Of a DNA stretch of 64,000 nucleotides, positions 40,896 to 46,575 are shown piece after piece. A program made the position numbers and the translations under genes. How positions within the stretch are numbered: position 1 is the first letter of the stretch; each line of letters starts with the position of its first letter. The notes under the pieces were generated by a model, which had not been told where the DNA came from, ran no database searches, and was given only the letters and a program-made list of their open reading frames with translations. The stretch is from Bifidobacterium breve (lineage in GTDB: Bacteria > Actinomycetota > Actinomycetes > Nanopelagicales > Nanopelagicaceae), in contig CAMCYS010000006.1 of the NCBI GenBank assembly GCA_945885625.1, positions 1 to 64,000 on the forward strand, read 5' to 3'.

Positions 40896-41570
40896 ATGCA
40901 TATTCCTGACGGATTTCTTGATGTCCAAACCTCAGTCATTTTTACTGGTCTTTCGGCCGCAGGTGTTGCTGTTGCGCTCAAAGGAGCTCGCTCACAACTA
41001 GATGAAAAAACCGCACCGCTTGCGGGTCTAACTGCAGTATTTATCTTTGCGGTTCAAATGCTCAACTTTCCAGTTGCTGCAGGAACAAGCGGGCATTTAA
41101 TTGGTGGTGCCCTAGCTGCAATCCTGGTGGGGCCATGGGCAGCGACTCTGGCTCTAACAATAGTTCTTCTGATGCAGGCATTTCTATTTGCCGATGGTGG
41201 ATTAACCGCTTTGGGTGCGAGCACTTTTAACATGTCAATTGTTGGAGTTTGGGCCGGTTATGGTGCTTTTCTCTTGGTTCGCAAGATTCTTCCAAAGAGT
41301 AAGCCGTCCATCCCGATAGCTGCTGCGATCGGTGGATTTGTTTCCGTGCCAATGGCTGCAATCAGTTTTACCGTTCAATATGCAATGGGAGCCACGGCAA
41401 CTTACTCAACGACTACGGTTCTTGGCGCAATGGTCGGAACACACATTTTGATCGGAATCGGCGAAGGTCTTATCACGGGTCTTACTGTCAGCGCTGTGAT
41501 TGCAAGCCGTAGCGACTTAGTTTACGGATGGAAAAACAACGCTAAGAGTTTGGAGATTCGAAATGCTTAA
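40896..41570 (+). CDS. cbiM: Cobalt/nickel ECF transporter substrate-binding membrane subunit CbiM
   Basis: CbiM is the metal-binding S component of a cobalt or nickel ECF transporter. The N-terminus MHIPDGFLD is the hallmark: in this family the processed N-terminal residues, including His2, help to form the metal site. About six to seven membrane segments are seen, and motifs include FPVAAGTSGHLIGGALAA and GIGEGLITG. Length is 224 aa, as usual. It heads cbiMNQO and overlaps cbiN by eight bases. Cobalt versus nickel cannot be decided from this sequence; the Nur-like operator and Ni-SOD favour nickel. Confidence 0.93.
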   Translation: MHIPDGFLDVQTSVIFTGLSAAGVAVALKGARSQLDEKTAPLAGLTAVFIFAVQMLNFPVAAGTSGHLIGGALAAILVGPWAATLALTIVLLMQAFLFADGGLTALGASTFNMSIVGVWAGYGAFLLVRKILPKSKPSIPIAAAIGGFVSVPMAAISFTVQYAMGATATYSTTTVLGAMVGTHILIGIGEGLITGLTVSAVIASRSDLVYGWKNNAKSLEIRNA

Positions 41571-41871
41571 CAACCGTAAGTTTTACGTTGCTGGCTTTAT
41601 TGTTTCATTATTTTTAGCTGGAGTTGTTTCTTTTTATGCTTCATCATCTCCTGATGGCCTAGAAAAAGTTGCCGAAGAGATTGGTTTTATCGAAACAGCT
41701 AAGGAAAATACTAACGCTGATGTAGTTCTATCTGATTACGGAACTAAGGGTGTTGATAATGAGCGTGCCTCTGTCGGAATCGCAGGTGTTATTGGCGTGC
41801 TCGGTACTGCAGTTGTAGCAGGCGTTGCATTTAAATTAATTGCGCGTAAGCCAAGAAAGACTAAAAATTAG
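41563..41871 (+). CDS. cbiN: ECF transporter auxiliary subunit CbiN (PDGLE protein)
   Basis: A 102-residue membrane protein with two hydrophobic segments (about 8-26 and 70-90) flanking an extracytoplasmic loop that begins SSPDGLEKVAEEIGF. The PDGLE motif defines this family, which works with CbiM in metal capture. The ATG overlaps the cbiM stop region by eight bases. Its 3' end overlaps the cbiQ frame. Confidence 0.93.
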   Translation: MLNNRKFYVAGFIVSLFLAGVVSFYASSSPDGLEKVAEEIGFIETAKENTNADVVLSDYGTKGVDNERASVGIAGVIGVLGTAVVAGVAFKLIARKPRKTKN

Positions 41872-42664
41872 AATACAAGAGAACAAGCATCACCATGGTC
41901 ATGATGTTGGTGAGCGGCTTTATCTCCATCGCCATACTTTTATTCATGCGCTTCCGTCACACTTAAAAATAGTTGCAGCGCTCTGCTTTATCCTGATCGT
42001 TGTCTCGACTCCGGTAACTCAATGGGGCGCTTTTGTGGCCTACTTTCTATGGTTATTCACCGTGGTCAAAGCGGCACAAATTCCATTTTTGACTTTGTTT
42101 AAGCGCGCTTTGATTGAAATTCCATTTATCTTCTTTGCAGTATTAATGCCCTTCTTTGGTACTGGTGAAAAAGTACAAGTGGGACCTTTTGAGCTATATC
42201 GCGAAGGTTTGATTGCTGGTTCGGGCATTGTAGTAAAGGGCACTTTGGGCGTCATGACCGCGATTATTTTGTCTACCTCTACGACTGCTCGTGAAATTCT
42301 CCGTGGGCTAGAACGTATGCGTCTACCAGTTCTTATGGTTCAAATTGCTTCCTTCATGTTGCGATATGTAAATGTTGTAAATGATGAAATGGAACGGATG
42401 AAGGTTGCGCGTGAATCACGAGGCTTTAACGCAACTGGAATGAAAAGTTGGAAAGTACTTGCCACTGCAGCTGGTGCATTGTTTATTCGATCTTATGAAC
42501 GAGGTGAACGAGTGCATCTTTCAATGTTGTCACGGGGTTACCAAGGAGTTTTGCCACAAGAGCAAAAACTTAAGATAAGTGGTTCGATTTGGTTAACCGC
42601 CATGATCTACCCACTTGTTGCTGTAATCATTTTTATTGCTCAGTTACTGATTGGAAGAATGTAA
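41840..42664 (+). CDS. cbiQ: ECF transporter transmembrane coupling subunit CbiQ (start uncertain)
   Basis: CbiQ is the T component that couples CbiM to the ATPase. The family look is clear in HRHTFIHALPSHLKIVAALCF, the membrane segments, and the coupling-helix motifs MKVARESRGF and LSMLSRGYQG. The start is uncertain: there is no ATG or GTG between the cbiN stop and the conserved region. A TTG at 41840 lies 32 bases inside cbiN, and an ATT at 41867 overlaps the cbiN stop. The N-terminus contains a His-rich run (KHHHGHD), possibly metal-binding. The stop overlaps the cbiO ATG by one base. Confidence 0.9.
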   Translation: MRVSQERLKIRIQENKHHHGHDVGERLYLHRHTFIHALPSHLKIVAALCFILIVVSTPVTQWGAFVAYFLWLFTVVKAAQIPFLTLFKRALIEIPFIFFAVLMPFFGTGEKVQVGPFELYREGLIAGSGIVVKGTLGVMTAIILSTSTTAREILRGLERMRLPVLMVQIASFMLRYVNVVNDEMERMKVARESRGFNATGMKSWKVLATAAGALFIRSYERGERVHLSMLSRGYQGVLPQEQKLKISGSIWLTAMIYPLVAVIIFIAQLLIGRM

Positions 42665-43404
42665 TGAATACCCCAAGTCTAGAAATAAAAGAATTAGCTT
42701 TTGCCTATCCCGATGGTAATCAAGCGCTATTCGGGGTGAACCTATCGGTGCAACGAGGCGAACGCGTTGCACTGCTTGGCCCTAATGGGGCTGGTAAGAC
42801 AACTCTGGTTATGCACATGAATGGAATCCACCCAACCGCACATGGTTCGGTACATGTAGCGGGCCAACTGGTGGATGCTAAAGATAAAGAATCAATTAAA
42901 GATATTCGCTCAAAGGTAGGAATTGTTTTTCAGGATCCTGATGATCAGCTATTCATGCCAACAGTTGGTGAAGATATTGCTTTTGGCCCATACAACATGG
43001 GCAAGAGAGGCGCTGAACTTGATGCAATAGTTGATGAAGCGCTGCATCTTGTCGGAATGAGCGAATTCAAAGATCGCCCTCCTCATCATCTTTCATTTGG
43101 TCAACGGCGCCGCGTTGCTGTTGCGACAGTGTTGGCAATGAAACCTGAAATTCTTGTTCTAGATGAGCCTTCCTCAAACTTAGATCCAGCTAGCCGCCGC
43201 GAATTAGCCGATATTTTGCGCTCATTAGATATCACTATGGTTATGGTTACGCACGATCTGCCTTATGCCTTCGAGCTTTGTGAGAGATCAGTGATTCTTT
43301 CAGGTGGCGTGATCGTTGCCGATGGCAAGACTCCTGAAATTCTAAAAAATGATGAGTTATTAAAAGCTAATCGCCTTGAACTGCCCGTTGGCTTTTCAAT
43401 TTAA
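42664..43404 (+). CDS. cbiO: ECF transporter ATP-binding protein CbiO
   Basis: The ATPase of the cobalt/nickel ECF transporter. Walker A is GPNGAGKT (39-46), the Q-loop is GIVFQDPDDQLF, which is typical of ECF ATPases, the signature is LSFGQRRRVAVA, and Walker B is ILVLDEPSSNLD. Length is 246 aa. The open frame extends 25 codons upstream, but the ATG at 42664 is coupled to the cbiQ stop (TAATG) and gives the family N-terminus. Its 3' end overlaps the convergent EamA gene by 38 bases. No second ATPase is present, as expected for a group I transporter. Confidence 0.94.
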   Translation: MNTPSLEIKELAFAYPDGNQALFGVNLSVQRGERVALLGPNGAGKTTLVMHMNGIHPTAHGSVHVAGQLVDAKDKESIKDIRSKVGIVFQDPDDQLFMPTVGEDIAFGPYNMGKRGAELDAIVDEALHLVGMSEFKDRPPHHLSFGQRRRVAVATVLAMKPEILVLDEPSSNLDPASRRELADILRSLDITMVMVTHDLPYAFELCERSVILSGGVIVADGKTPEILKNDELLKANRLELPVGFSI

Positions 43405-44281
43405 TTCGACCTTGCGCAATCGCAGCACTTAGTAAAACTACTAATCCCCCGACAGGTTCATTCCAGGTAACTTTTTCACCTAAGAAAATGATTCCCACTA
43501 TCACGGCAACTACCGGCGTCACGAAAGTTACCGAAGAGGCAATCGCACTTCCGGCAGCTGCCATAATTTTAAAATTCCAGATATAGGCAAAACCGCTTCC
43601 GAATATTCCGAGACCTAACATGGCAAGTACGGGCCCAAGTTCGTACTTATTTTCGGCGATGCCATCGAATAAATAGAACGGCAACAAGGTGATAGTTGCA
43701 GCAACTAGTTGCGTAGCGGCCATAACTTCAGGTTCTAGTTTTAGTGGCAAAACATTCTTACGTGAATATGGAAATGAAATTCCATAACAAGTTACTGCTA
43801 ACAGAAGTGCACCGATAGCCCACCATGGATTAGCTCCCAAACCATTCCAAGCGCCTAAGACAATAAGAACGCCGACAAAACCAAGAATTAGCCCGACTAC
43901 TTGATGAAAAGGTAATTTCTCTTCGCGAAAGGCAATCATGATCGCAAGCAAAGTCATTAGTGGCGTTACGGCATTAATTATTCCGGCCAGAATCGAAGTT
44001 ACTTCAGTTTCGGCAACAGCAAAAAGAATTCCTGGAATTACATTGAGCAAAAGTGAGACCACCCATAAATGCCCCCAAGTTGAACGCCCCCGAGGCAGCT
44101 TTAAACCCATGACTTTGAGCGCAATTAATAAAGTAATTGCCCCTAATAGGCAGCGACCAAATGCCACCCCAAATGGGGTCAAAAATTCAAGGCCCAACTT
44201 AATAAATATGAAGGAACAGCCCCAAACAATTCCGAGTGCTATATAAAAAGGCACCCAGGATTTAGTTTTTGCTGAACTCAT
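43367..44281 (-). CDS. EamA/DMT superfamily transporter
   Basis: A 304-residue membrane protein of the drug/metabolite transporter family with two repeated EamA domains and about ten hydrophobic segments. Family landmarks are the GIVWGCSFIFIKLGL start, LTPFGVAFGRCLLGAITL, and the second-half VTPVVAVIVGIIFLGEKVTWNEPVGG. The substrate (amino acid, nucleotide sugar or other metabolite) is not predictable. It overlaps the 3' end of cbiO by 38 bases, convergently, and starts six bases after a TAGCCT hexamer. Confidence 0.88.
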   Translation of the reverse strand: MSSAKTKSWVPFYIALGIVWGCSFIFIKLGLEFLTPFGVAFGRCLLGAITLLIALKVMGLKLPRGRSTWGHLWVVSLLLNVIPGILFAVAETEVTSILAGIINAVTPLMTLLAIMIAFREEKLPFHQVVGLILGFVGVLIVLGAWNGLGANPWWAIGALLLAVTCYGISFPYSRKNVLPLKLEPEVMAATQLVAATITLLPFYLFDGIAENKYELGPVLAMLGLGIFGSGFAYIWNFKIMAAAGSAIASSVTFVTPVVAVIVGIIFLGEKVTWNEPVGGLVVLLSAAIAQGRIKLKSQRAVQGD

Positions 44282-44293: not shown

Positions 44294-44340
44294 CCGATTG
44301 CCGCGTAATTCAAGTGGTAAGTAAAGTTGATAATTCAAGG

Positions 44341-44346
44341 TATAAT
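44341..44346 (+). promoter_or_regulatory. -10 of the DEAD-box helicase, with a long leader
   Basis: A consensus TATAAT, the only perfect one I saw upstream of a gene here. It lies 141 bases before the helicase ATG, so the message would carry a leader of roughly 135 bases. No clear -35 at 17 bases. Confidence 0.55.
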
Positions 44347-44352
44347 TAGGCA

Positions 44353-44487
44353 TTGCTTCGACCGAAGCAAAGTACTTCCCCCACACAAGTGCAAAATTGC
44401 ACTTTCTTGCGAGTCTTATCTCCACCCTGACCAATTTGAGTCAAACCAAGACGCGCTTGTTTACGTCTTGATTGGTGTTGATTTTCT
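44353..44487 (+). promoter_or_regulatory. Structured 5' leader of the DEAD-box helicase with three inverted repeats
   Basis: Three inverted repeats follow the TATAAT. The first is TTGCTTCG-AC-CGAAGCAA at 44353-44370. The second is AAGTGCAA-AA-TTGCACTT at 44387-44404. The third is CAAGACG-N10-CGTCTTG at 44447-44470, ending 17 bases before the ATG. Each can fold as a hairpin in the RNA, with loops opened to at least four bases. No strong SD is visible between the last hairpin and the ATG. The layout recalls long, autoregulatory or cold-responsive leaders of DEAD-box helicases, but no named family is recognised. Confidence 0.5.
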
Positions 44488-46575
44488 ATGGCTCTACAAC
44501 CACGTACCCCTGCCCCTGGCAAAGCTCGACGAGCGGCCGCGGCCAAAGCTGGCAAGCCAGCAAACAAAACAACGGCGCAGAAAGAATCTGCAACTCGTCG
44601 TTATGCCGATATTGATCCGCGTTCGGTATCAAAGAAAGAAGCTCGCAACCTAGAGCGTTCGAAGTTACGCGCTAAGCGTTATGCCGAATCGAAAATTTCA
44701 AAGCCTCGCGCTGAAAAACTAGTCGATGGAAGCGCTGAAGTTCCAGTATTTGAACGTTCTCGTTCATCAAAGCCAGCAACCGGCAAGTCACGTACTGATC
44801 GCGGTGCACGACCAGCAACAGGACGCCCAGAACGTAAGTCATCTGATCGTCCGCGCACAGATGCACCTCGCAGCGAAAAGCCAGCATTCAAAAAGACTTT
44901 TAATGACAAGCGCGACAGGCGCGAAAAGCCAGAGACTCGTGCCACTAAGTTTGTAGCAGAGCGTGCAACGCGTCCTGATCGCAATCCAGCTCCTGCCCGT
45001 AATTCCGACACTGTTCCATCAACTCGTCGCGATGCTGCAAAAGCTCGCGCAACTCGCAGCAACGATGGTCGCCCAAATTTTGAACCACGCAAGCGCGAAA
45101 AATATGTTCCGGGCGTTGGTAAGCGTAGCGAAAACGCAGCTCGCGAATTCAAACGTTCCGAAGATCGCACCAACTCCTATAACCGGCCAGAACGCACCTC
45201 AAGTGCTTACGGTCGCACTCACTCAGCAACAACAGATTTCGGTGCGGACGATAATTACATTTCAGCTAACTTAGCTGATGCTAATTTGATTGATGCCACA
45301 CCAAAGTCTGCAATCACAATGACTTTCGCCGAGCTAGGTATTGCTCCTAAGTTAGTTGAGCGCCTTACAGCGCAAGGAATTAATCACCCATTCCCAATTC
45401 AGATTGCAACACTGCCTGATGCTCTAGCTGGTAACGACATATTGGGCCGTGGACAAACTGGTTCAGGCAAGACTCTTGCTTTCGGTTTAGCAATGCTGAC
45501 TAACCTAAATGGTCGCGTCGCAAAGCCGCATAAGCCACTTGGTTTGGTGTTAACACCAACTCGCGAATTAGCACAGCAGATTGATGAAGTATTAACGCCA
45601 CTTGCGAAGTCAATTGGGCTTGATTCAGTAGTAATTGCGGGCGGAATGCCTTACGGCAAGCAGATCACTGCGATGCGTCAATCCTGCCCAATCTTGGTAG
45701 CAACACCCGGACGCTTGATCGATCTACTCGATAAGGGCGAAGTTCAACTCGATGATCTACAGATCACCGTTCTTGATGAAGCTGATCAAATGGCTGACAT
45801 GGGCTTCTTGCCAGTAGTTAAGGAAATTCTTGATCAAGCTAAGCCAGATGGACAGCGTTTGTTGTTCTCAGCAACTCTTGATCGTGGCGTAGATGCGCTA
45901 GTTAAAAAGTATTTAAATGAGACAAAGACTCACTCATTGCAGAATGATCGTGCCTCAGTTTCGACAATGAAGCACTACGTACTAACAATGCAGACTACTG
46001 ATAAAGATGATGTAACCGCGCAGATCGCATCTCGCAGCGGCAAAACCATCTTGTTCGTAAAAACTCAACGCGGTGCTGATCGCTTAGCTGACAAACTTGC
46101 TCACGCAGGTGTTCCAGTCGGCGCACTTCACGGTGGAAAGTCACAAGCAGTGCGTACTCGTACTTTGGCACTATTTAAGGAAACTCCTAACGCAGCCCTA
46201 GTTGCAACCGATGTTGCAGCTCGCGGTATTCACGTTGATGGAATTTCACTAGTCGTGCACTTCGATGCACCAACAGATCACAAGGATTATCTGCACCGTT
46301 CAGGTCGTACTGCCCGCGCTGGCGAAGAAGGCAATGTTGTATTGCTTTCAACTACAAAGAGCCAATCTGGTGTTAAGTCACTAACTTCACGCGCAGGCGT
46401 TACTCCGATATTTGTTCACGTCGAACCAATGTCTAACGAGTTAATTGATATCACTGGTGCAGTTGAGCCTTCAGGTATTCCTTACATCGCACCGGTGATG
46501 GAGAACAAGGGTCCAAGTCGTGGCAACCGTCGCCCTCGCCCTAACTCAAGCGAGCGTCGTCGTCGCCCTCGTTAA
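44488..46575 (+). CDS. DEAD-box RNA helicase with a long basic disordered N-terminal region
   Basis: An ATP-dependent RNA helicase, probably for ribosome assembly, RNA decay or cold adaptation. The core starts near residue 279: Q motif (MTFAELGI...HPFPIQ), motif I QTGSGKT (323-329), PTRELAQQ, motif II DEAD in VLDEADQMADMGF, SAT in LLFSATLDRG, and the second RecA domain through HRSGRTARAGEEG. Residues 1-275 are very rich in Arg, Lys, Ser, Pro and Glu and look disordered; in most bacterial relatives such tails are C-terminal. A short basic tail is also present. It overlaps the convergent GGDEF-like gene by 30 bases. Length is 695 aa. Confidence 0.92.
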   Translation: MALQPRTPAPGKARRAAAAKAGKPANKTTAQKESATRRYADIDPRSVSKKEARNLERSKLRAKRYAESKISKPRAEKLVDGSAEVPVFERSRSSKPATGKSRTDRGARPATGRPERKSSDRPRTDAPRSEKPAFKKTFNDKRDRREKPETRATKFVAERATRPDRNPAPARNSDTVPSTRRDAAKARATRSNDGRPNFEPRKREKYVPGVGKRSENAAREFKRSEDRTNSYNRPERTSSAYGRTHSATTDFGADDNYISANLADANLIDATPKSAITMTFAELGIAPKLVERLTAQGINHPFPIQIATLPDALAGNDILGRGQTGSGKTLAFGLAMLTNLNGRVAKPHKPLGLVLTPTRELAQQIDEVLTPLAKSIGLDSVVIAGGMPYGKQITAMRQSCPILVATPGRLIDLLDKGEVQLDDLQITVLDEADQMADMGFLPVVKEILDQAKPDGQRLLFSATLDRGVDALVKKYLNETKTHSLQNDRASVSTMKHYVLTMQTTDKDDVTAQIASRSGKTILFVKTQRGADRLADKLAHAGVPVGALHGGKSQAVRTRTLALFKETPNAALVATDVAARGIHVDGISLVVHFDAPTDHKDYLHRSGRTARAGEEGNVVLLSTTKSQSGVKSLTSRAGVTPIFVHVEPMSNELIDITGAVEPSGIPYIAPVMENKGPSRGNRRPRPNSSERRRRPR

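Follow-up and report, generated by a model that had tools for sequence, protein, structure and literature searches.

The DEAD-box RNA helicase gene in the stretch of DNA analysed here (64,000 nucleotides, hereafter the window) is preceded by a leader whose hairpins, P1, P2, P3 and P4, are established by sequence comparison among relatives as parts of a conserved structured RNA. Since neither Rfam nor the literature searched contains a match, we file it as a new family of structured leader RNA with a switch that is as yet unproven but testable. Our preferred reading, to which we give somewhat less than even credence, is that of a two-state conserved leader serving this one gene and probably autoregulated by the helicase itself.

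In the 206-nt gap 5' of the helicase gene, a TATAAT is followed by three perfect hairpins, after which comes the ATG. An earlier note had described a consensus TATAAT 141 bases upstream of the gene and three clean inverted repeats ending 17 bases before the ATG. Both descriptions proved exact: the TATAAT (44341-44346) and the ATG (44488) are separated by 141 nt, and the perfect repeats (44353-44359/44364-44370, 44387-44393/44398-44404 and 44447-44453/44464-44470) stop 17 nt short of the start codon. A scan of the 64 kb for stems of at least 7 bp with loops of 3-10 nt returned 42 stems. Only four of 12773 segments of 135 nt held three or more of them; the four overlap and all lie at the helicase leader, making the arrangement unique in the window. 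None of 2000 shuffles of the leader contained three stems, and its minimum free energy has a z-score of -3.2, with an equally good fold in one of 200 shuffles. All three repeats are thus real, but a structure consisting of these repeats alone misses the most conserved part, positions 44409-44417, which follow the second repeat, precede the third and are complementary to a portion of the latter. The elements are as follows.

44341..44346, plus strand: −10 box TATAAT; TANNNT is invariant in the aligned leaders of the genus and keeps a constant distance to P1 in 87 of 100 loci
44353..44370, plus strand: P1 hairpin, at the presumptive 5' end; 7 of 7 pairs changed on both sides, 94% of cells paired
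44378..44382, plus strand: conserved C-run between P1 and P2, from the genus alignment
44387..44404, plus strand: P2 hairpin; 8 of 8 pairs changed on both sides
44409..44417, plus strand: core GCGAGTCTT, which would supply the first strand of helix A; identical in 75 of 77 unique rows
44428..44443, plus strand: P3, a short TGAC/GTCA stem in the window, larger in relatives; covariation in the core alignment
44447..44470, plus strand: P4 hairpin, CAAGACG / CGTCTTG; the same pair occurs as A-U, G-U or G-C across several genera
44448..44456, plus strand: AAGACGCGC, which would be the second strand of helix A and overlaps the P4 5' arm and first loop bases
44471..44476, plus strand: conserved ATTGGT at the foot of P4; can pair with ACCAAT at 44430-44435
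44488..46575, plus strand: gene of the DEAD-box RNA helicase (695 aa, about 275 of them in an N-terminal extension)
43367-44281, minus strand: divergent gene, an EamA-type transporter by eye

Pattern scanning returned no complete sigma-70 promoter (−35 plus −10) at the leader. The TANNNT motif is invariant in all 66 aligned leaders of the genus, and in 87 of 100 loci its end falls 4-6 nt 5' of the model start, that is, about 1-2 nt 5' of P1. With this conserved −10 box as the sole basis, the leader would be the transcribed 5' part of the helicase mRNA, and transcription would probably start near 44352-44354.

Of the 101 genus genomes, 74 gave a hit in a blastn search with positions 44300-44520 as query, among them 28 of the 32 of good quality. 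The 66 aligned genus leaders present the same succession of elements: TANNNT, P1, C-run, P2, GCGAGTCTTA, P3, P4, ATTGG and ATG. Among them GCGAGTCTTA is invariant and P3 variable. A first covariance model, comprising P1, P2 and P4, matched 191 of the order's 296 genomes and, among those of good quality, 92 of 108; the matches all come from one family, in 11 of its 17 genera. In a sample of the class the same model matched 33 of 296 genomes, six of which belong to another family, f34. A core model comprising P3 and P4 was then matched by 43 of 166 genomes of a second order, that of f34, in families f34 and f39, and by 55 of 394 genomes of the class, where some of the weakest matches (E about 0.003 and above) are due to chance. 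Scanning a collection of 84,980 species for the exact pattern yielded 116 stretches. Among the matches listed (80 of the 116), most are in records with actinobacterial titles, Candidatus Planktophila included, and a few are in metagenome-assembled genomes with unlikely titles. The core stretch on the chromosome of Planktophila lacus (L280) is identical to the one in G225, which belongs to the window's genus; that genus is therefore probably Planktophila. The element was not found in the viral contigs searched.

A number of matches were discarded. Six from f26/g42 (E 0.02-0.05) were judged to be chance matches, having no helicase after them; three of these (L383-L385) lie inside long ORFs that look SecA-like by eye. 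G423:C13, G273:C31 and a second match in G136 were set aside on the same ground. Apparent tandem copies in G273 and G259 turned out to be single elements with a long P3. In two genomes of the window's genus (L029, 1474-1577, minus strand; L061, 541-645, plus strand) the P3 stretch is lost while the core and P4 are intact. Element and helicase also occur together in metagenome-assembled genomes titled Bifidobacterium breve, Streptomyces griseus, Streptomycetaceae and Cytophagaceae (L205, L214, L218, L223, L225, L244, L247, L256 and L263); the presence of the pair suggests that these titles are probably wrong. The assembly of genome G000 is 90.75% complete and gave no match to the 16S or 23S rRNA families.

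The downstream gene carries the Pfam domains DEAD and Helicase_C, as expected of the DEAD-box helicase named in the earlier note; its product scores below every NCBIfam cut-off and comes nearest to the CshA and DbpA models. In 44 of 45 loci the ORF following the leader starts like these helicases, the exception being L182, whose contig ends after a few codons. The next ORF likewise has a helicase-type start in 30 more loci from f34 and f39; six of these lack the P-I-Q string, yet have an LGVP/LGIP-type start common to them. Of 80 named loci, one has no ORF (contig end), and ten, that one included, lack P-I-Q in the readable part. The upstream ORFs of 257 loci (a redundant set) fall into at least 15 clusters, and 32 of them resemble the window's own neighbour. 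The leader thus keeps its place before one gene class independently of what lies upstream, as a cis-regulatory leader would. The window's genome has nine matches to PF00270 but one element. The long basic N-terminal extension of about 275 aa (44488-45310) is shared by the orthologues in the window's genus; many other genera have the same leader before a helicase that starts right at the Q motif.

Relatives were examined for conservation and covariation of the stems, as the earlier note had proposed, and both were found. In 100 model-aligned loci, 92.3% of the cells pair, compared to 73.4% with shuffled and at most 44.6% with slid controls, and 370 cells are changed on both sides, against 101 in shuffled and no more than 83 in slid controls. 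Under a tree-based null, 11 of the 22 pairs within the structure reach E < 0.05, and the ten best-scoring column pairs overall are all P1 or P2 pairs. This null is our own reimplementation in the style of R-scape, with a tree built from the same alignment. Covariance-model alignments favour the modelled structure; the slid controls and the tree-based null reduce this bias without removing it. For P3 and P4, 65 distinct rows of the core alignment are 92.6% paired, with 76 double-change cells against 17.4 in shuffled and at most 13 in slid controls. No single pair of P4 passes the tree-based null, because P4 is nearly constant; its second and last pairs nonetheless appear as G-C, A-U and G-U in separate genera, the second being A-U in the window's own clade. 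Run on a MAFFT alignment (A1), RNAalifold predicted P1 and helix A but neither P2 nor P4. Since MAFFT misaligns P2, the P1 and P2 counts were made on the covariance-model alignments. The stems are thus kept through compensatory changes, as in a structured cis-regulatory leader RNA. That the leader might be such an RNA, and an undescribed one, had been raised in the earlier note; conservation across two orders, covariation, constant linkage to the helicase and the lack of an Rfam match all speak for it.

The core may offer an alternative to P4. Apart from one central mismatch, GCGAGTCTT can base-pair with RAGAC-R-CGC, the stretch made up of the P4 5' arm and the first three bases of the loop; in the window, 44448-44456 complements 44409-44417 with the single exception of 44412 opposite 44453. 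The helix that would result, termed helix A, and P4 are mutually exclusive. The positions of the P4 5' arm have changed 1, 4, 2, 0, 0, 0 and 10 times, the 10 belonging to the base that helix A leaves without a partner. In the loop, the bases CGC, which P4 does not pair, have changed 1, 0 and 1 times, and the last two bases 9 and 10 times. If P4 alone were under selection, the arm positions should behave alike and the loop should be free to vary; the observed rates fit helix A instead. Of 36 different combinations of core and P4, 32 have a complete helix A and 21 a complete P4; in 12, helix A is whole while P4 is broken, and in one it is the other way round. In L391/L392, from one genus, the core reads GCTGGTCTG and the loop begins with AGC, turning a G-C into a U-A at a pair found only in helix A. 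Another helix A pair is lost in these same loci, one is broken in L169, and L077 and L079 have the AGC loop with an unchanged core. Helix A shows no statistical covariation because the core hardly varies. Together, the rates and the one compensatory change are suggestive of helix A forming as a rival of P4.

The near-invariance of the core and of the loop CGC would also be expected of a protein-binding site. A leader without a switch, in which these elements bind the helicase, a ribosomal protein or a cold-shock protein and thereby block translation or steer decay, is an alternative to which we assign perhaps one chance in four. It does not account for the conserved bases being complementary to each other, nor for the variable base of the arm being the one opposite the mismatch; moreover, word matches to E. 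coli rrnB rRNA, sought as a sign of rRNA mimicry, were at chance level, and mimicry was dropped. To the eye, some genus rows would allow a pseudoknot between the P4 loop CGCTTG and the P2 5' arm, but others lack it, and it was also rejected.

The leader could also be read as coding. Within the genus, a TTG or ATG always precedes CGA GTC TTA, and in most rows a stop comes after seven codons, so that a short upstream ORF, M-R-V-L-x-x-P, acting through ribosome-dependent attenuation, looks convincing. In other genera, however, the same triplet is ACG, TCG, CAG or CTG, and several rows of the genus itself read past the stop position. Neither the start codon nor the frame is therefore conserved as a uORF-dependent attenuator would need, and we consider this explanation extremely improbable.

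Computed folding energies favour P4 over helix A in all of 100 leaders, by a median of 5.8 kcal/mol at 37 C and 6.2 kcal/mol at 15 C. With P4 so much more stable, helix A could be irrelevant at equilibrium; it would then exist only transiently, during transcription, unless something holds it. The near constancy of the preference argues against a temperature sensor, in which the folds themselves would respond to temperature and raise helicase levels in the cold with no protein involved. Cold induction is frequent among DEAD-box helicases and speaks for the idea, but we think it quite improbable for this leader.

The GG of ATTGGT is not a canonical Shine-Dalgarno sequence and may possibly serve as a weak ribosome-binding sequence. 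Its first G is open with a median probability of 0.04 when P4 is forced and 0.165 when helix A is forced. Pairing of the 5' flank with the GG exceeds 0.5 in 65 of 74 rows, with a mean of 0.89 as opposed to 0.74 for shuffled flanks; as this is only slightly above the shuffled value, burial of the GG by an extension of P4 was rejected as a general rule. The window's own flank, which includes the ACCAAT able to pair with ATTGGT, is poor at burying the GG: 56 of 60 shuffles do at least as well.

Attenuators and translational riboswitches typically have two mutually exclusive helices sharing one strand ahead of the start region, the arrangement proposed here. The present leader differs from them in having no known ligand, no leader peptide and no terminator-like site (a hairpin followed by a T run, as in intrinsic transcription attenuators) on its plus strand. 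The latter makes translation or mRNA stability the likelier target. Stability by itself is an explanation that we think rather improbable: the hairpins would guard the 5' end and a ribonuclease would cut in the core, with an effect comparable to that of the rne feedback leader, the system with which the rne5 RNA family is associated. The position of P1 at the presumptive 5' end and the role of the gene product in RNA metabolism agree with this; the complementarity of core and P4 and the conserved foot of P4 are left unexplained.

Returning to the two-state leader, we infer its trigger, ON/OFF direction and temperature response as follows. The 3' half would alternate between helix A, in which the core pairs with the P4 5' arm and the first loop bases, and closed P4. 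Computation suggests that helix A may form first during transcription and that P4 is the more stable end state. With P4 formed, the GG at its foot would be held in structure and translation would be low; with helix A formed, the GG would be freer and translation higher. DEAD-box proteins unwind short RNA helices, so that in the simplest loop low helicase would mean helix A and an open start, and high helicase P4 and a closed one. The helicase, or a general RNA-remodelling activity, would shift the leader from helix A to P4. The helicase would thus limit its own synthesis, which would rise whenever there is too little unwinding, as might happen in the cold. A probable role of P1 is to shield the 5' end.

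We also entertain, with considerable doubt, a bolder version of the two-state leader: a new RNA family that reads unwinding capacity, the metastable co-transcriptional helix A being the helicase's substrate and its resolution to P4 closing the start. If true, this would be feedback on unwinding capacity needing neither ligand nor second protein, and it would have persisted in two orders of aquatic actinobacteria, most of them with small genomes. In fresh water, streamlined actinobacteria are abundant, and few regulators are known from them; the persistence of a large structured leader at genome sizes of about 1.3 Mb implies that selection on it is real. The leader would represent an undescribed family tied to an RNA helicase gene, and a concrete two-state model makes it testable how cells measure RNA-remodelling capacity.

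Related systems have been described. The abstract on crhR of Synechocystis (PMC3485376) presents an autoregulated DEAD-box helicase whose control is partly post-transcriptional and temperature-dependent. The likeness lies in the gene class and in the dependence of expression on its own product, which for the present gene is a proposal; crhR is cyanobacterial, and its abstract mentions no conserved leader structure like the one found here. The genes for RNase E and RNase J (rne / rnj) are outlined in PMC5874925 as subject to feedback through the 5' UTR. There, as is proposed for the present gene, the product of an RNA-metabolism gene limits its own synthesis through the leader; that feedback, as outlined there, acts by mRNA decay and concerns another gene and sequence, and the present leader has no Rfam match. 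The uORFC-6-1 motif, another structured leader candidate, precedes hflX, a gene described in the relevant entry of PMC8632094 as an RNA helicase. As listed there, it occurs mainly in Bacillales, before a different gene family, and is defined by a uORF, the feature rejected above for the present leader. Under helicase or DEAD, the discovery papers PMC8632094, PMC11109978 and PMC2864571 list no such motif, nor did one appear in the wider literature searched, where a 2017 survey of 224 candidate RNAs was compared via Rfam only.

Consistent with the earlier note, which had recognised no known RNA family, no Rfam 15 family reached its gathering threshold at the leader in the window. The leader likewise went unmatched when 20 related loci were searched whole. 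This argues against a small-molecule riboswitch, as do the association with one gene class without an obvious ligand pathway and the near absence of P3 in some members. A conserved, unpaired-looking core amid covarying stems is aptamer-like, but such a riboswitch seems to us very improbable. No cobalamin or other riboswitch was found anywhere in the window, where positions 40896-43404 hold what looks by eye like the gene cluster of an ECF transport system of the cobalt/nickel type. The single Rfam match among the 20 loci is a TPP riboswitch above the gathering score, located elsewhere in L166 (405-519, minus strand), near the same helicase locus of an f34 genome.
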